DNA of 64,000 nt, from NCBI GenBank assembly GCA_019455325.1, contig JACFMQ010000006.1, forward strand, positions 1-64,000. Direction: 5' to 3'. A program made the translations under genes and the position numbers. Positions within the stretch are counted from its first letter, which is position 1, and each line of letters begins with the position of its first letter. Source of the stretch: Rhodocyclaceae bacterium (GTDB taxonomy: Bacteria > Pseudomonadota > Gammaproteobacteria > Burkholderiales > Rhodocyclaceae). Shown piece by piece: positions 220 to 55,067 of the stretch. The notes under the pieces are model-generated. The model searched no databases. It was not told the origin of the DNA and was given only the letters and a program-made list of their open reading frames with translations.

Positions 220-618
220 ATGCGTCACCGTTTGGGACTTCGCAAACTCAACCGTACCAGCAGCCATCGCCTGGCGATGCTGCGCAACATGAGCGTCTCG
301 CTGCTCCGGCACGAAGCGATCAAGACGACGCTGCCCAAGGCCAAGGAACTGCGCCGCGTCGTCGAGCCGCTGATCACGCTCGGCAAGAAGCCGTCGCTGG
401 CCAACCGCCGTCTGGCCTTCGACCGTCTGCGCGACCGCGACATCGTCGTCAAGCTGTTCGACGAGCTGGGCCCGCGCTTTGCCAGCCGCAACGGCGGCTA
501 CCTGCGCATCCTCAAGTGCGGCTTCCGCGTCGGCGACAACGCGCCGATGGCCTACGTCGAGCTGCTCGACCGGCCCGAGCCGACCGAGGCGCCCGCCGAG
601 GTCGCCGAAGCCGCCTGA
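220..618 (+). CDS. rplQ: 50S ribosomal protein L17
   Basis: A 132-residue L17 protein of the large ribosomal subunit. It begins [17 protein letters not shown], the conserved L17 N-terminus, and contains the basic [17 protein letters not shown] stretch. The length is normal for the family, with a short Glu/Ala-rich tail. AGAGAGGAA lies just upstream of the ATG. It is the last gene of the alpha operon and is followed by a strong terminator. Confidence 0.98.
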
Positions 619-636
619 TTCGCGGACGCTCCATGG

Positions 637-667
637 AAAAAGCCAGGCTGCGGCCTGGCTTTTTTTT
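637..667. terminator. Rho-independent terminator after rplQ
   Basis: AGCCAGGC and GCCTGGCT form an 8-bp GC-rich stem around a TGCG loop. It is preceded by five A and followed by seven T. The flanking A and T tracts let it work in both directions, so it can also end the minus-strand transcript whose last gene stops at 692. Confidence 0.93.
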
Positions 668-691
668 CGGCGGAGCCCGTCACCGGGCGTT

Positions 692-48658: not shown

Positions 48659-49369
48659 TCAGCCCGGTTTGCGCAGCAGGTCGACCCGCTGCGGGCTGAC
48701 GAAGCTGGCGCCCGTCGGCGTCAGGTGGGCCGAGAACCGCTCCTCCACCTGCCGGTACAGCGCCGGCGACAGCCGATGGTCGGAGTGCGTGACGCGGATC
48801 ATGCGCGCGTCGAACTCGGCGAAGTCCGCGAAGCGGCTGCGCGTGCCGAAGAAAAGCTGCCGTTCGAGCGCCAGCCGGCCGTCGTCCACCGCCCGGCGCA
48901 CGGCGGCGAAGGCGGCCTCGCGGACGATCTTCTCGTCATGGAAGAGGCGCATGACCTCGTTCAGCTCGCCGGCGAAGACCGGCTCCGAGATCCACGCCCG
49001 GCCGCCCGGCCGCAGCACGCGGGCGATCTCGCCGAGCGCCCGGTCCATCAGCTCCACCGGCACGTGGTGCAGCGACTTGAACATGATGACGACGTCGAAG
49101 CTCGCGTCCTCGGCCGGAATCGCCTCGGCGCCGCCCTGGCGGAAGTCGACGCCGGGCAGGTCGGCGATCTGCAGGTTGCGCGCGTGCTGGACGGCGTCGA
49201 CCTCGAGGGCGACGATTTCCTGCGGCCGGCCGTTCTCGGCCAGCGTGCGCGTCTTCTCGGCGCGGCCGCAGCCGAGTTCGAGCACGCGGGCGCCGGCGAA
49301 GGGCAGTTCGTCGAGCAGCAGCTCGACCTCGTTGCAGGCGGCGGTCTGTAGCGGATCGGCGATCTTCAT
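48659..49369 (-). CDS. Class I SAM-dependent methyltransferase
   Basis: A 236-residue methyltransferase. The SAM motif I is VLELGCGRAEKTR, motif II EIVALEVDAVQH and post-motif FDVVIMFKSLHHVP (Methyltransf_11-like). The ATG at 49369 gives MKIADPLQTAACNEVELLL; the frame remains open upstream only because it shadows the lysR gene. It converges with the DUF457 gene with 4 nt between. Substrate unknown. Confidence 0.85.
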   Translation of the reverse strand: MKIADPLQTAACNEVELLLDELPFAGARVLELGCGRAEKTRTLAENGRPQEIVALEVDAVQHARNLQIADLPGVDFRQGGAEAIPAEDASFDVVIMFKSLHHVPVELMDRALGEIARVLRPGGRAWISEPVFAGELNEVMRLFHDEKIVREAAFAAVRRAVDDGRLALERQLFFGTRSRFADFAEFDARMIRVTHSDHRLSPALYRQVEERFSAHLTPTGASFVSPQRVDLLRKPG

Positions 49370-49443
49370 GGCGGGTGTTCCGTGGGTGAAAAGCGAAAAT
49401 ATTAGCAGACGATGATATGCGCCGGCAGCCCGCCGCCGCTTGC

Positions 49444-50349
49444 CTAGTCGCGGTCCCAGTACGGATCGGGGCCGAAGCGTTCGAGCAGGAAGTCGATGAA
49501 GGCGCGCACCTTGGCCGGCAGGTGGCGGGTCGGCAGGTAGAGCGCGTAGACGTGGCGCTCGACCGGGATGTATTCGGAGAGCGCGGCGCGCAGCCGGCCG
49601 GCCTGCAGGTCGCGGCCGATGATGAAGGTCGGCAGCAGGGCGAGGCCGAGGCCGCCGAGCACGGCCTGCGACAGCGCCTCGTCGTCGTTGATGCGCAGCC
49701 GGCCGGCGACCGGCACGGCGATCTCGCCTTCCGGCCCGGTGAAGCGCCACAGCCCCTGCTCGCCGGAGTGCGTGTAGTCGAGGCAGTTGTGCCGCGCCAG
49801 GTCCTGCGGCACGCGCGGCGTGTCGTGCCGGGCGAAGTACTCCGGCGTCGCGCACAGCCGGCGGCGCACCGGCGCCAGCTTCCTGGCGACGAGGTTCGGC
49901 GGCAGCTCGCGGGCGACGCGCACGACCACGTCGTAGCCTTCCTCGGCGAGGTCGATGCCGCGGTCGGTGATGGTCATGTCGATGTCCAGGTCCGGGTAGT
50001 GGCCGAGGAAGTCGGCCAGCGCCGGCGCCACGTGCAGCGTGCCGAAGGCCACCGAGGCGGCGACGCGCAGCACGCCGCGCGGCTGCGCGTGCAGGCTGCT
50101 CGCCACCTGCTCGGCGCGCGCCGCCTCGTCGAGGATGCGGCTGCAGTGTTCGGCGAAGGCGGCGCCGACCTCGGTCACGCTCAGGTGGCGGGTGCTGCGG
50201 TGGAGCAGGCGCACGCCGAGCGAATGCTCCAGCTTGGCCACCGCCTTGCTCACCGCCGAGCGCGACATGCCGAGCCGGCGCGCGGCGGCGGAAAAGCTGC
50301 CGCCCTCGACGACGTGGGCGTAGACGGCCATCAGATTGAGATCCTGCAT
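49444..50349 (-). CDS. LysR-family transcriptional regulator
   Basis: A 301-residue LysR protein. The N-terminal HTH is GSFSAAARRLGMSRSAVSKAV followed by KLEHSLGVRLLHRSTRHLSVT, close to the CrgA/DmlR subgroup. The rest is a substrate-binding-like effector domain. It is divergent from rnk; an inverted repeat GGAAAC-N10-GTTTCC (50370-50391) just upstream of its start could be its own site. Target and effector unknown. Confidence 0.9.
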   Translation of the reverse strand: MQDLNLMAVYAHVVEGGSFSAAARRLGMSRSAVSKAVAKLEHSLGVRLLHRSTRHLSVTEVGAAFAEHCSRILDEAARAEQVASSLHAQPRGVLRVAASVAFGTLHVAPALADFLGHYPDLDIDMTITDRGIDLAEEGYDVVVRVARELPPNLVARKLAPVRRRLCATPEYFARHDTPRVPQDLARHNCLDYTHSGEQGLWRFTGPEGEIAVPVAGRLRINDDEALSQAVLGGLGLALLPTFIIGRDLQAGRLRAALSEYIPVERHVYALYLPTRHLPAKVRAFIDFLLERFGPDPYWDRD

Positions 50350-50369
50350 GCGCGAATTGTATCTTCACG

Positions 50370-50391
50370 GGAAACAGTCATGTGCGTTTCC
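50370..50391. promoter_or_regulatory. Inverted repeat between lysR and rnk
   Basis: GGAAAC (50370-50375) and GTTTCC (50386-50391) are 10 nt apart, 21 nt upstream of the lysR start codon. A dyad of this size in a divergent lysR promoter is a plausible LysR-type site. Confidence 0.4.
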
Positions 50392-50434
50392 GGCGGCTTA
50401 TGCGCGCGCCCGATCATCCCTATGATTGTCCTGT

Positions 50435-50465
50435 CCCTGCCGCACGCGGCGGGGTTTTTTCTTTT
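50435..50465 (+). terminator. Rho-independent terminator-like hairpin upstream of rnk
   Basis: CCCTGCCGC (50435-50443) pairs with GCGGCGGGG (50446-50454), with one T-G wobble, followed by TTTTTTCTTTTT. On the plus strand no gene precedes it for 1.7 kb, so it would end a short transcript from the lysR-rnk region or act as an attenuator in the rnk leader. Confidence 0.7.
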
Positions 50466-50485
50466 TGCGCACGGGGATGTCGAAG

Positions 50486-50851
50486 ATGAGAAACGATGAA
50501 CTGGTGATCGCCGACCGGGACTACGCGCGGCTCGCCCTGCTGGCCCGCGACAGCGCGCTGGCCGAGGAGCTGAGCCGGGCCACCGTCCTGCCGCTGGCGC
50601 GGATGCCGGAGAACGTCGTGCGCATGCATTCGCGCGTCACCTACACCATCGACGGCGCCGGCGAGCCGCACGAGGTCGAGCTGGTCTTTCCCGACGAGGC
50701 CGATCTCGCCGCCGGCAAGGTGTCGGTGCTGGCGCCGGTCGGCGCCGCGCTGCTCGGGCTGGAGGAAGGGCAGGAGATCGACTGGTCCTTCTTTCCCGAC
50801 GGCAACGCGCGGCGCCTGCGCGTCGTGCGCACGCTGGCGCCGACCGACTGA
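50486..50851 (+). CDS. rnk: Rnk-like nucleoside diphosphate kinase regulator (GreA/GreB C-terminal domain)
   Basis: A 121-residue protein. NDELVIADRDYARLALLAR is the Rnk N-terminal helix region and the C-terminal part (EVELVFPDEADLAAGKVSVL, PVGAALLGLEEGQEIDW) is the GreA/GreB FKBP-like domain. Rnk binds RNA polymerase near the secondary channel. I chose ATG 50486, with GGGGA 8 nt upstream; ATG 50477 adds three residues. A terminator-like hairpin lies just upstream, hinting at attenuation. Confidence 0.85.
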   Translation: MRNDELVIADRDYARLALLARDSALAEELSRATVLPLARMPENVVRMHSRVTYTIDGAGEPHEVELVFPDEADLAAGKVSVLAPVGAALLGLEEGQEIDWSFFPDGNARRLRVVRTLAPTD

Positions 50852-50895
50852 GCGCCGCGCGATGGACAGCGGCGCCACCGACCGGCGCCCGGCCG

Positions 50896-51459
50896 GTGGC
50901 CGGCGCCGCTTCGTTTGCCTCGGCGACGGCCGTCATGGTGCATAGCGAATTCCCGCTGCAGCGGCTGGTGCAACTGGCGTCGAGCCCGTTCCAGGTGGGC
51001 TTCGCCCGCCAGGTGGTGCGCATGCTGCCGCCGTCGCCCGTCGCCGCCTACGAGCCGACCCGCGACGGGCTGCTGATCCTCGCCGGCAACGAGGCCGCGC
51101 TGCGTGCGCAGACCGAAATGCTCTGCGGCATGTACGGCGACGACCTGCTGCCGCAGCCGCCGCAGGTGCGCTACATCTCGCTCGGCAACCGGCCGTACGA
51201 GCCGATCATGCGCGTGCGCGTGCGCGTCGCCGGCGAATACCGGGACGCCGTGTGCGCGGACCTGGCCGAGCGCGAGGCGCTGCTGCTCGGCGAACGCGCG
51301 CGCGCCGGCGCCTGCCTGCTGCGCGCCGAGGCGCCGCTGCGCACCCTGCTCGGCTACGGCGAGGCGCTGGCCGGTCTGGCCGCGGGCGCGACCTGGCACC
51401 GGACCGTGCTCGACCGCTACGTGCCGATGCGTCGTCCGCCCGGCGGTCGGGCGGCCTGA
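50896..51459 (+). CDS. Standalone EF-G domain III-V-like protein A (no GTPase domain)
   Basis: About 187 residues (GTG at 50896) or 174 (ATG at 50935); neither has a good RBS. From EPIMRVRVRVAGEYRDAV through DLAERE, LRAEAPLRTLLGYGEAL and LDRYVPM it follows the pattern of EF-G domain V (EPVMKVEV, DLSRRRG, AEVPLSEMFGYATQLRSL in E. coli). Before it, RDGLLILAGNEAALRAQ and PQVRYISLG match EF-G domain III (TIIAGMGELHLDI, PQVAYRET). The G domain, domain II and domain IV are absent. A paralogue is at 52859-53389. Function unknown. Confidence 0.7.
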   Translation: MAGAASFASATAVMVHSEFPLQRLVQLASSPFQVGFARQVVRMLPPSPVAAYEPTRDGLLILAGNEAALRAQTEMLCGMYGDDLLPQPPQVRYISLGNRPYEPIMRVRVRVAGEYRDAVCADLAEREALLLGERARAGACLLRAEAPLRTLLGYGEALAGLAAGATWHRTVLDRYVPMRRPPGGRAA

Positions 51460-51476
51460 ACGGCGTAAACACCTAC

Positions 51477-51554
51477 CGCAAAGGCGCAAAGGAAAAACGA
51501 AAGCAGGAATTTCTTTGCGTTTCCTTTGCGCCTTTGCGTCTTTGCGGTGGACGT
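51477..51554. repeat. Intergenic inverted repeat, CGCAAAGGCGCAAAGG type
   Basis: The left arm 51477-51495 and right arm 51520-51538 are perfect reverse complements over 19 bp, with a 24-nt loop. The sequence continues TCTTTGCGGTGGACGTT, whose last 12 bases also end the 47513-47619 repeat. Same family, with A for G in the repeated unit. It separates the two EF-G-like gene clusters. Confidence 0.88.
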
Positions 51555-51615
51555 TCGCCTTTTCATGCGATCGCCCTGGGGTGAACGGCTGGCCGTCGCC
51601 GCGGCCCGGCCCCGT

Positions 51616-52527
51616 TCAGGGCGCGGGCGCGCCGGCGCCGGCCCAGCAGCCGCTCATCAGTCCCTGCGGCCGCAGGCGCGCCCGTACCTGCGCGCTGCTT
51701 TCCCAGTCGTCGGCGCGCACGCCGAGTCCGGCGAAGATGCCGTAGCCGGCGCCGGCGCGGATCTCGTCGCCGGCGCAGAGGCTTTCGCCCGCCCGGATGG
51801 CGCCGGCGGCGACGATCGCCGCGCCGGCGCGGATGCCCCAGCCGGTTTCGAGATGCCGCGCGCAGTCGATGGCGCCGCCGGCGTCGATGCCCTGTTCCGC
51901 CCGGATGTCCTCGCCGCCGACGATGTCGCCGCCGGCGCGCAGGCGCTTGCCGCAGCGGATGGCGCCGGCGACGACGACGTCGCGGCCGGCGACGGCGTTG
52001 CCGGCGACCGTCAGCGCGCCGCCGCTCCGCAGTTCCCAGCCGGCGCGCACGTCGCCGTGGCCGACGATGTCGCCGTCGGCCTCGACGCCCCAGTCGGCGC
52101 GGATGTCGCCGTGCGCCTCGATGCTGCCCGCGCAGTGCAGGCTGCCGGCGATGCGCAGGTCGCCGCCGGCGACGACGGCCTTGCCGACGCGCGCGCCGCC
52201 GCCCGCGCGGATGTCCCGGCCGGCGCGCAGGAGGCCGGCGGCCTCGATGCCGCCGCGCACCTCGACGCTGCCGGCGAAGACCAGCGCGTCGGCGTCGAGG
52301 CGGTCGAGCACGAGCACGGCGTCGGTCGGCCCGAACTGGTCGAGCAGCCAGCAGGCGTCGTTGATCCGCCCGTCGGCGACGAGGGCGTCGAGCAGCTCCT
52401 GGTAGTCGCCGCCGTCGCCGTAGCGGCGCAGGAACCAGCGGAAGCCGTCGGCGCAGGGGCGCTTGGCGCGGACGAAGTCGCGCGTCAGGTCGACGGCGCG
52501 GTCGGTCGGGGCGATCGTCGCGCTCAT
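51616..52527 (-). CDS. Beta-helix (bactofilin/hexapeptide-like) repeat protein
   Basis: A 303-residue protein. The N-terminal ~75 residues (DLTRDFVRAKRPCADGFRWF, ALVADGRINDACWLLDQFG) form a small conserved module. From about residue 80 there are some 25 short rungs of the type AG.DI.AGG (for example AGRDIRAGGGARVGKAVVAG, AHGDIRADWGVEADGDIVGH), predicting a beta-helix as in bactofilins or acyltransferase LbH domains. It ends GLMSGCWAGAGAPAP. I chose ATG 52527, which overlaps the phasin-like stop by 4 nt. Last gene of the usp operon. Role unknown; scaffold-like is a guess. Confidence 0.75.
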   Translation of the reverse strand: MSATIAPTDRAVDLTRDFVRAKRPCADGFRWFLRRYGDGGDYQELLDALVADGRINDACWLLDQFGPTDAVLVLDRLDADALVFAGSVEVRGGIEAAGLLRAGRDIRAGGGARVGKAVVAGGDLRIAGSLHCAGSIEAHGDIRADWGVEADGDIVGHGDVRAGWELRSGGALTVAGNAVAGRDVVVAGAIRCGKRLRAGGDIVGGEDIRAEQGIDAGGAIDCARHLETGWGIRAGAAIVAAGAIRAGESLCAGDEIRAGAGYGIFAGLGVRADDWESSAQVRARLRPQGLMSGCWAGAGAPAP

Positions 52528-52862
52528 TTCGCCGGCGGCTCCTCCGCCGGCAGCGCCGCGGCCAGGCTCCGGTTCAGCCCGCGGCCGATTTCGCGGCAGG
52601 CGGCGCAATAGAGGGCGAAGCGCTCGACCTGCGGCGGCAGGCCGGCGCTCAGTTCTGCCGCCGCTTCGCCCGGCGTCTGCGCGGCGACCAGGCGCAGCGC
52701 GACGAGCGAGGCGTCGTCGACGGCGGCGCGGGCGACGGCCAGGTTCAGCTCGGTCAGCCGGCCGAACGAGGCCAGCCCGGCACGGCCGACGGCCAGCGAG
52801 GTGTCGAGGGCGGCGAGCTGCCGCCGGGCGAGGTGCGTGAAGAGCGTTTCCATGTCGTTCAT
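52524..52862 (-). CDS. Phasin-like protein
   Basis: A 112-residue helical protein: LARRQLAALDTSLAVGRAGL, then TELNLAVARAAVDDASLVAL and VERFALYCAACREIGRGLNRSL. The spacing of amphipathic helices and the start (ETLFTHLARRQLAALD) match the phasin_2 family, which coats polyhydroxyalkanoate granules. It is shorter than typical phasins (about 180) and has a Pro/Glu tail. The ATG at 52862 overlaps the EF-G-like stop by 4 nt; ATG 52853 is an alternative. Confidence 0.7.
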   Translation of the reverse strand: MNDMETLFTHLARRQLAALDTSLAVGRAGLASFGRLTELNLAVARAAVDDASLVALRLVAAQTPGEAAAELSAGLPPQVERFALYCAACREIGRGLNRSLAAALPAEEPPAK

Positions 52863-53389
52863 CCCGGGTAACAGGCCATCGTTTCGGAGGAATACGACCA
52901 CAGTGGCCGGTAGTGGCTGAGCCAGAGGGTCGCGTGGGCGGTGCCGCCGCTCAGGCGCCGCAGCGCGCGCGGGTAGCCGAGCAGCGTGGCGAGCGGCGCC
53001 TGGCCGCGGATGACGCCGCTGTCCGGGCGGACCTCGACGTCGGAGATTTCCGCCGCGCGCCGCGCCAGGCAGGCTTCGATCGGTCGGACGTCGGCCGGCG
53101 CAGCGACGACGCGAAAGCCCATGATCGGCTGCTGCCAGCCGTCGGCGTAGAGCAGGCGCACGCCCGGCGTCGAGAAGCGGACGCCGGCGCCGAAGGCGTC
53201 GCGCAGGAGACGCCGCGGCTCGGCGAGGTCGGCTTCCGTGCGGCCGAGGATGAGCAGGCCGTCGCGCGTCGCTTCGCGCGCGAAGTCGCCGCCGTCGGGC
53301 AGCAGCTCGCGCGCCTTTCTGGCGAAGGCGAGCTGCGGGCCGGGGACGGTGCCGGTGGCCAGTTGTTCGATGGGGTAGGCGGCGTTCAT
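52859..53389 (-). CDS. Standalone EF-G domain III-V-like protein B (no GTPase domain)
   Basis: A 176-residue paralogue of the 50896 protein. Shared landmarks are TRDGLLIL, then PIM, and then a run matching EF-G domain V: QAPLATLLGYPRALRRLSGG and LSHYRPL. ATRDGLLILGRTEADLAEP followed by GVRFSTPGVRLLYAD corresponds to EF-G domain III; the GELHL motif is replaced by TEADL. There is no G domain, domain II or domain IV. It lies 9 nt after the usp gene and overlaps the phasin-like gene by 4 nt. Function unknown; a ribosome or RNA link is inference from fold only. Confidence 0.72.
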   Translation of the reverse strand: MNAAYPIEQLATGTVPGPQLAFARKARELLPDGGDFAREATRDGLLILGRTEADLAEPRRLLRDAFGAGVRFSTPGVRLLYADGWQQPIMGFRVVAAPADVRPIEACLARRAAEISDVEVRPDSGVIRGQAPLATLLGYPRALRRLSGGTAHATLWLSHYRPLWSYSSETMACYPG

Positions 53390-53398
53390 CTCGCGGCG

Positions 53399-54370
53399 TC
53401 ACCGGATCAGGGTCACGGGCAGCGGCGAGCGGCGCAGCACGCCGCCGGAGATCGAGCCGAGCAGCAGGCCGCCGAGCCAGCCGAGGCCGCGCGTGCCCAT
53501 CACCAGGTGGCCGCAGCCGACGTCCTCGGCGACTTCGAGGATCTTCGCCACCGGATCGCCGAAGGCGACGTGGAAGTCGTAGCCGACGCCGGCGGCGGCG
53601 AGCGCGTCCAGGGCCTCGCGGCAGTCGACGGCGGCCTGCTCGCGCTCCGCGGCCATCGTCGCCACGTCCGGCGTCGCCGGCAGCGGTCCCGCGGGCGGGC
53701 GCACGTTGAGCAGGTGCAGGCGCGGCGCGCGCGGCCGGCCGGCGAACTGCGCCAGCGCGTAGCGCAGCGCGCGCAGCGACGCCGCCGAGCCGTCGCAGGC
53801 GATCAGCCAGTCCACCCATTCGGCGGGAAACTCCCCGGCGCGGCAGCCGGACTTGGCCAGCGTCACCGGCACCCCGGCCTTCGCCAGCACGTCCATGGCC
53901 ACCGAGCCGAGCAGCGCGCAGGCGACGCTGCCGGCGCCGTCGGCGCCCATGACGATCTCGGCGGCGGCGTGCTCGCGCGCGTGTGCCAGGATCGCCTCGG
54001 CCGGGTTGGCGGCGACGAGGCGCAGCAGGTAGGGAAGACCCGCCTCGTCGAGCGCGGCGCGCGCCGCCCAGGTGTCGGCGAGGCCCTGCCGCAGCAGCGT
54101 GTCGTCGCGTTCGCCGGCGCCGAGGACGATCTGCGCGTTGAGCAGGTGCACCTCGACGTCGGCCGGGCCGTCGGCCATGCGCAGGGCGACGTGCAGCGCG
54201 CCGAGCGCGGCCGCCGAACCGTCGACCGGAACCAGGATGCGGCGCGCGGCCGCGCCGGCCGCCGGGCCGCTGCGCGCCGTCAGGCCGCTCAGGCGTCCGA
54301 AGGCGTCGCACTCGACGGCGTGCCAGTTGGTGAATCCGGTCTTCATGTCCATTCGTTCATCCATTCGCAT
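53399..54370 (-). CDS. Tandem universal stress protein (two UspA domains)
   Basis: A 323-residue protein with two UspA domains. The first is ~40-175 (RRILVPVDGSAAALGALHVAL, AAEIVMGADGAGS, GSVAMDVLAKAGVPVTL). The second is ~185-323 (VDWLIACDGSAASLRALRYAL, VMGTRGLGWLGGLLLGSISGGVLRRSPLPVTLI), with the G2xG9G(S/T) ATP-binding pattern best preserved in the second domain. It heads the operon with the EF-G-like, phasin-like and beta-helix genes. The start is uncertain: in-frame ATGs occur at 54370, 54364, 54352 and 54346, none with a strong RBS. Confidence 0.88.
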   Translation of the reverse strand: MRMDERMDMKTGFTNWHAVECDAFGRLSGLTARSGPAAGAAARRILVPVDGSAAALGALHVALRMADGPADVEVHLLNAQIVLGAGERDDTLLRQGLADTWAARAALDEAGLPYLLRLVAANPAEAILAHAREHAAAEIVMGADGAGSVACALLGSVAMDVLAKAGVPVTLAKSGCRAGEFPAEWVDWLIACDGSAASLRALRYALAQFAGRPRAPRLHLLNVRPPAGPLPATPDVATMAAEREQAAVDCREALDALAAAGVGYDFHVAFGDPVAKILEVAEDVGCGHLVMGTRGLGWLGGLLLGSISGGVLRRSPLPVTLIR

Positions 54371-54626
54371 CGATCGGAACGGGTTCCTGGGTGGAAACCG
54401 TTCCTCATAAACGACAATCCGGCGCTGCGCGCTCTGTCTTCCGGGCGCCCGCCGAATGCGTGTTTTCCTTTGTTTTTTCGGATGATATGTCTATCAAATG
54501 GAAAGAATAAGCCTCCGTAGCAGAATCACTTTGTTTCCTTAAAGGCTACAATAGGCCGCCGGATATGCCCACCCATTGCACTGTTCCGGCACAAATGCGC
54601 ATTCGTCGGCGGCGCTGCGCGGTCGA
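54371..54626. other. Intergenic region between usp and groES promoters
   Basis: It is notably A+T-richer than the window (for example 54470-54545). It must hold the minus-strand usp promoter. TACAAT at 54547-54552 could be a plus-strand -10 for a second groESL promoter, but I see no matching -35. No gene is supported here. Confidence 0.5.
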
Positions 54627-54656
54627 CTTGAAATCCGCCGGGGCTGTCCCTATCAT
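54627..54656 (+). promoter_or_regulatory. Sigma32-type heat-shock promoter of groESL
   Basis: CTTGAAA at 54627-54633 and CCCTATCAT at 54648-54656 are 14 nt apart, close to the sigma32 consensus CTTGAAA and CCCCATNT. It immediately precedes the CIRCE element and groES. Confidence 0.8.
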
Positions 54657-54682
54657 TGGCACTCGTTGGCTTTGAGTGCTAA
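54656..54682. promoter_or_regulatory. CIRCE element (HrcA operator)
   Basis: TTGGCACTC (54656-54664), 9 nt, GAGTGCTAA (54674-54682). It differs from the consensus TTAGCACTC-N9-GAGTGCTAA at a single base. HrcA binding here would overlap the transcription start. Confidence 0.95.
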
Positions 54683-54776
54683 CACGGCCCGTCGCGATCC
54701 CGCACCGCGGGCGTCGCAGGACAGCCGCCGTTGGCGTTGTCAGCAATCACTACCGCTTTGAACCAAGGAGAATTCG

Positions 54777-55067
54777 ATGAAAATCCGTCCGTTGCACGAC
54801 CGTGTGATCGTCAAGCGCATCGAAGCCGAGCGCACCACCGCTTCCGGCATCGTCATCCCCGATACCGCCGGCGAAAAGCCGGACCAGGGCGAAATCCTGG
54901 CCGTCGGCCCGGGCAAGCGCGACGAGAACGGCAAGCACATCGCCGTCGACGTCAAGGTCGGCGACCGCGTGCTGTTCGGCAAGTACGCCGGCCAGACGGT
55001 CAAGGTCGATGGCCAGGAACTGCTGGTCATGCGCGAAGAAGACATCATGGGCGTGCTGGAAGCCTGA
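54777..55067 (+). CDS. groES: Co-chaperonin GroES
   Basis: A 96-residue GroES, the standard length. It starts [19 protein letters not shown], has the mobile loop [16 protein letters not shown] that binds GroEL, and [18 protein letters not shown]. It caps the GroEL cage. CCAAGGAGAATTCG is a strong RBS. groEL follows after 36 nt. A sigma32-like promoter and CIRCE control the operon. Confidence 0.99.

Follow-up and report, generated by a model that had tools for sequence, protein, structure and literature searches.

Can domains III and V of elongation factor G (EF-G) stand alone as a protein, without the GTPase, and what might such a protein do? The question is raised by two genes in a 64,000-nucleotide stretch of DNA (the window) from a Rhodocyclaceae bacterium (assembly GCA_019455325.1, contig JACFMQ010000006.1, positions 1 to 64,000 of the forward strand). 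Both belong to a family of rare proteins of about 160-180 aa that consist of EF-G-type domains III and V only, with no GTPase (G) domain, no domain II and no domain IV. The two open reading frames are present on the strands and at the coordinates given in the original prediction, a reading of the letters and their translations, the first on the plus strand and the second (52859-53389) on the minus strand. The first frame, 50896-51459, stands as predicted, but its GTG start at 50896 is probably too far upstream; ATG 50935 is the likelier start because most orthologues begin M-x-H-S-E-F-P. Read in this way, the first gene (50935-51459, plus) encodes 174 aa, with a domain III-like N-terminal half (about 1-87) and a domain V-like C-terminal half (88-174), and the second encodes a 176-aa member of a different branch.

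The C-terminal half is EF-G domain V in both proteins, as had been predicted. Pfam EFG_C (PF00679; gathering cut-off 27.9 bits) matches the first with 39.9 bits and the second with 34.8 bits, and comparison of the family with an EF-G domain V profile gives E 4.8e-21. The genome has six EFG_C matches, namely frames of 703, 716, 626 and 616 aa and the two window genes. Profile searches run as a check obtained EF-G matches; among solved structures, the best sequence match of the first protein is EF-G and that of the second is mitochondrial EF-G2. The other domains are missing, again as claimed: EFG_C is the sole Pfam listing for either protein at E <= 10 and the two domains take up the 174 and 176 aa, which leaves no G domain; domain II has no Pfam match and a profile probability of 0.1 against its EF-G counterpart, and domain IV has no Pfam match and a profile probability of 0.1-0.5.

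For the N-terminal half, a counterpart of GMGELHL followed by PQV.Y had been read by eye as domain III. The motifs are present and hhalign sets the family N-half on EF-G domain III in that same register, but weakly (probability 26%). The N-half profile, built from at most 23 rows, reaches probabilities of 0.1, 26.3, 0.1 and 0.1 against EF-G domains II, III, IV and V (profiles from 77 EF-Gs), with E 7e-4 for domain III as a single comparison. Against the whole EF-G profile it falls on domain III again (probability 3.8, E 0.011). In a search of solved structures with the family profile, the BipA match (positions 42-164, E 1.7e-4) runs across the boundary between III and V, and in EF-G chains domain III aligns in the correct register but scores below 0 bits. 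Sequence alone is suggestive for domain III, and it is the fold that carries the claim.

The model of the first protein has a confident fold with the two expected ferredoxin-like (beta-alpha-beta-beta-alpha-beta) domains, and the domain pair keeps a relative placement like that in EF-G. All 50 Foldseek rows listed for this model are EF-G, EF-2, BipA or LepA entries. For the second model, 49 of the 50 listed rows are translational GTPase entries, including 1wdt, which carries a project-code title in Foldseek and is named an EF-G homolog in the solved-structure sequence search; the fiftieth, 4v90_AY, is titled just 'Thermus thermophilus Ribosome', with the chain unnamed. VIA-align sets residues 3..174 of the first model onto EF-G 403..691, with the N-half on domain III and domain IV skipped. 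Its listed rows (50 per model) contain spliceosome entries in addition, which we take to be the spliceosomal EF-2 relative. The outcomes set beforehand as refuting the original prediction were all looked for, and the prediction is supported. The III-V anatomy can be taken as established in the case of the first protein and has good support in that of the second, and we regard the identity of both as EF-G-like III-V proteins without GTPase as close to certain. An unrelated double ferredoxin-like protein, similar to EF-G by convergence, might be considered, as ferredoxin-like folds are common and Pfam EFG_III finds no match. This is highly improbable in view of the curated EFG_C match over its cut-off, the strong domain V profile match and the near-uniform Foldseek rows of both models; for the C-half it is already contradicted, and only for the N-half alone is it still arguable.

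The two window proteins are related to each other, as the original prediction held (33% identity over 164 aligned columns, BLASTP E 4e-18). A recent duplication of the first gene as the origin of the second was rejected: the first protein belongs to a clade of eight rows (support 99/99) from which the second is excluded, and the second groups with locus L131 in the family tree at a support of only 91/83. The two are members of different branches, and each is only 22-40% identical to members of other branches. The first protein (50935-51456) contains 0 lysines and 21 arginines among its 174 residues. The C-terminus is -AA in 16 of the 23 family rows, a few of which stop short of the true end, and is often preceded by P-G or PPG (window 51433-51456); this tail is possibly degron-like or stalling-like.

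A family-level search of 150 genomes found full-length relatives of the first protein in four genomes besides its own, and no full-length relative in the three same-genus genomes listed in it; in the order search, nine of 399 genomes match at E <= 1e-12, own included. The second protein alone as query found no relative over the named contigs. The family alignment over the named contigs found 15 loci, of which twelve (L048-L059) are relatives across both halves, from Rhodocyclaceae, Sulfuritalea, Candidatus Desulfobacillus denitrificans, Thiobacillus, other betaproteobacterial metagenome-assembled genomes (MAGs) and one MAG labelled Gammaproteobacteria. L054 is cut off at its start by a contig edge, and L055, L056 and L058 duplicate the records of three genomes from the family-level search. 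L060-L062 (Chloroflexi/Anaerolineae, matches 89-162) have domain V only and were left out of the family. At class and phylum level the alignment searches bring up EF-G domain V for the most part, and a match was counted only if it enters the N-half; short-frame domain V matches (e.g. G636:C140, G863:C2, G1022:C192, G132:C358 and G123:C2) were likewise left out. Among the matches listed, where weaker members may be missing, the class search (369 genomes) adds at least four full-length members (G810, G551, G868 and G556) and one partial (G609), and the phylum search (299 genomes) no full-length match beyond the class. Further searches matched five of 28 genomes (one new, G1169) and two of 147 (one new, G1215), and G551 is the sole genome in an order-level search around it. 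A tblastn search of plasmids, with a single query for each of two branches, gave no match. In viral contigs, 46 stretches matched a pattern in the search with the family alignment and 0 were confirmed; the viral structure library holds one match below E 0.001, an EF-2 fragment of Yasminevirus.

Since only parts of EF-G are present, the genes could be seen as decaying, functionless fragments of an EF-G gene. The chance of this is negligible: the frames are open, the sequence is conserved across many genomes and the fold is confident, and for the first branch decay is contradicted by a dN/dS of about 0.14-0.33 in seven close pairs, all of that branch, which shows it to be under purifying selection. 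Internal TAG/TGA codons as signs of pseudogenes were rejected, as those stops are the ends of shorter members.

A possible clue to function lies beside the first gene. Directly upstream is rnk (50477-50851, plus; GreA/GreB C-terminal domain), which begins at ATG 50477 or, as in orthologues, at 50486. Its product, searched as a longer frame starting at 50426, matches Pfam GreA_GreB (60.3 bits) and E. coli Rnk 3bmb in the PDB (E 2.7e-12) and passes NCBIfam PRK05753 (112.6 bits, cut-off 109). A Rnk-like gene is located directly upstream on the same strand in 22 of the 31 family genes with scanned flanks, with 11-170 bp (<= 21 bp in 15) between the rnk stop and the aligned family-gene start. L134 and L144 have a Rnk-like gene upstream on the opposite strand, at 437 and 787 bp. 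The rnk profile was built partly from these same rows; Pfam GreA_GreB independently confirms the window rnk, the upstream genes of L048, L053 and L128, and that of L134. The pairing recurs across several families of the order and class, and a quick tree with weak backbone support places the rnk-like partners in several lineages. L128 (6032-7577) has its III-V gene flanked on either side by distinct rnk-like genes in the same orientation, and in L048 and L053 the Rnk-like protein of the second copy falls below the NCBIfam Rnk cut-off (77.4 and 76.1). A further Rnk-like gene with a frame of 182 aa (G000:C24:248341-248514, L149) lies elsewhere in the genome and groups weakly with the rnk-like partners of L132 and L133. 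Rnk is an RNA-polymerase-binding protein whose function a 2015 review (PMC4598747) lists as unknown. The original prediction had missed the linkage to Rnk, as well as that to the universal stress protein (Usp) described below.

Our preferred reading, held tentatively though it comes near to being probable, is a motorless docking module that works with Rnk and, in the second branch, is linked to Usp. Such a protein would keep the ribosome-touching parts of a translational GTPase and could not drive translocation. Together with the RNA-polymerase-binding Rnk it would adjust transcription and ribosome use as growth slows, and the second copy would serve a similar purpose within a universal-stress-protein operon. 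A functional partnership with Rnk in the first branch is rather probable, and the ribosome as binding target is possible, if somewhat doubtful. The proteins may act on ribosomes or RNA under stress, as first proposed. A bridge, in which Rnk sits on RNA polymerase and the III-V protein on the factor site of the ribosome, so that the pair slows or parks the coupled machines in stress, is quite improbable; if true, the role of Rnk would be the polymerase half of a transcription-translation bridge.

The EF-G domains kept here contact the L11 stalk base, the sarcin-ricin loop and S12. According to a review (PMC6562825), four EF-G residues, Glu456, Arg660, Ser661 and Gln664, are joined in a network with the sarcin-ricin loop. 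The equivalent of Glu456, in domain III, is E in every one of the 23 rows aligned from the 31 genes; the four columns hold the EF-G residues in 77, 77, 70 and 67 of 77 EF-Gs. These numbers are presumed to fall on the alignment columns indicated by their sequence context.

Several points weigh against docking on the ribosome together with Rnk. The Arg660, Ser661 and Gln664 equivalents are mostly lost (R 4/23, S 1/23, Q 0/23). The own-genome BipA homologue also lacks these three contacts (M, N and R in the profile alignment), and their loss therefore does not exclude ribosome binding. Net charge among the 23 rows ranges from -7 to +5, so that general RNA binding is not suggested, and affinity for the ribosome may be low without the G domain. 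Pfam EFG_III (PF14492) matches neither window protein at E <= 10; its five matches in the genome at that threshold are all in frames of 559-716 aa. Domain III is assigned from the fold together with a profile match that is weak, and how the domains of the second protein are arranged in its model is uncertain (pTM 0.59, rmsd mostly 6-7 A). No rnk lies beside seven of the 31 family genes: it is truly absent within reach of L056, L123, L129, L131, L135 and the second window gene, and L054, at a contig edge, cannot be judged. Near-identical strains occur among the rows (L050/L051, L126/L141) and G478 supplies two, so independent events are fewer than rows. Neighbourhood alone is no proof of contact or shared function.

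Some of these points would suit a dedicated Rnk partner, which binds and tunes Rnk or the Rnk-RNA polymerase complex and has lost ribosome contact. The tight rnk pairing (22 of 31 genes), the loss of most domain V contacts to the sarcin-ricin loop and the lack of a consistent positive charge all agree with it; the invariant domain III glutamate (23 of 23 rows) and the members without rnk, including the second window protein, do not, and we consider it unlikely, if a serious rival.

The second gene has a Usp-phasin setting. A tandem Usp gene (53399-54370, minus) lies directly upstream on the same strand with a gap of 9 bp, and L129 has the same Usp-then-III-V order with a gap of 7 bp. Directly downstream is a phasin-like gene (52524-52862, minus) whose start overlaps the stop of the second gene (ATGA), followed on the strand by a gene for a beta-solenoid-like protein (51616-52608, minus; FapA 26.5 bits, below the cut-off of 31). 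In L056 (6538-8768) the Usp, phasin and FapA-like genes are adjacent and the III-V gene that separates phasin from Usp in window 51616-54370 is absent, which suggests an insertion in the window or a loss in L056. The beta-solenoid-like repeat protein is long and has relatives in the flanks of L054, L056, L057 and L058. As the second protein and L129 follow a Usp gene instead of rnk, and each window protein shares only the 22-40% identity given above with members of other branches, the family might be a repurposed ferredoxin-like pair whose binding partner, in general stress metabolism, is a different protein, a nucleic acid or a small ligand, with no connection to Rnk or the ribosome. The EF-G-like domain placement in the first model and the recurrence of the rnk pairing in several families of the order and class make this distinctly unlikely.

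In the leader of rnk, an intrinsic-terminator-like hairpin with a U-run (50435-50454, plus) separates the gene start from a -10-like CTATGAT that was identified by eye. This -10 is absent from the output of a promoter scan, which gave another site (50336-50365), and a terminator scan of the region found three sites versus 1.8 in shuffles; the window alone therefore proves nothing. A simple custom scan of the 11 stretches that lead from a -10-like site to the rnk start region found a hairpin and U-run in every one, versus 259 of 2200 mononucleotide shuffles, the 11 being the first-branch loci (of 14) with the first rnk copy located; L049, L054 and L056 drop out. Rnk leaders with terminators are described in other Proteobacteria (PMC2965389). 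Rfam over 49000-55000 gave no family at gathering score. The hairpin region (50421-50486) is possibly an attenuator of the whole operon. Divergent from rnk is a recurring neighbour, a LysR-type regulator (49444-50349, minus).

Translational GTPases are among the best-studied proteins, yet the literature searched, with most subscription journals outside its coverage, held no description of a III-V-only architecture. Automatic database names for such proteins may exist. The family is a natural test of domains III and V acting without the GTPase, and its recurring rnk pairing offers a direct handle on Rnk function.

Among known systems, Rnk is a recurring upstream neighbour and not a relative, as it belongs to a separate family (GreA/GreB C-terminal domain). 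IMPACT/YigZ and SBDS are described as standalone proteins with EF-G-like ferredoxin folds and no GTPase, with different domain sets. IMPACT/YigZ combines an IMPACT N-terminal domain and an EF-G-like C-terminal domain; in the window proteins Pfam at E <= 10 listed EFG_C alone, with HMMER filters that drop most weak matches. EF-G, EF-G2 and mitochondrial EF-G2 share with the family the fold and order of domains III and V, EPxM, LxxR, PLxxLxGY, the final Y and the domain III glutamate; the family differs from EF-G in having no G domain, II or IV and in the loss of most of the Arg660/Ser661/Gln664 contacts. BipA/TypA and LepA/EF4 pass directly from domain III to V without an intervening domain IV; they retain the GTPase along with domain II, and each has a C-terminal domain of its own. 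The family profile alignment crosses the III-V junction of BipA/TypA and covers its III-V part only, whereas the family proteins (Pfam EFG_C only) are without the GTPase and the BipA-type C-terminal domain and end after domain V.
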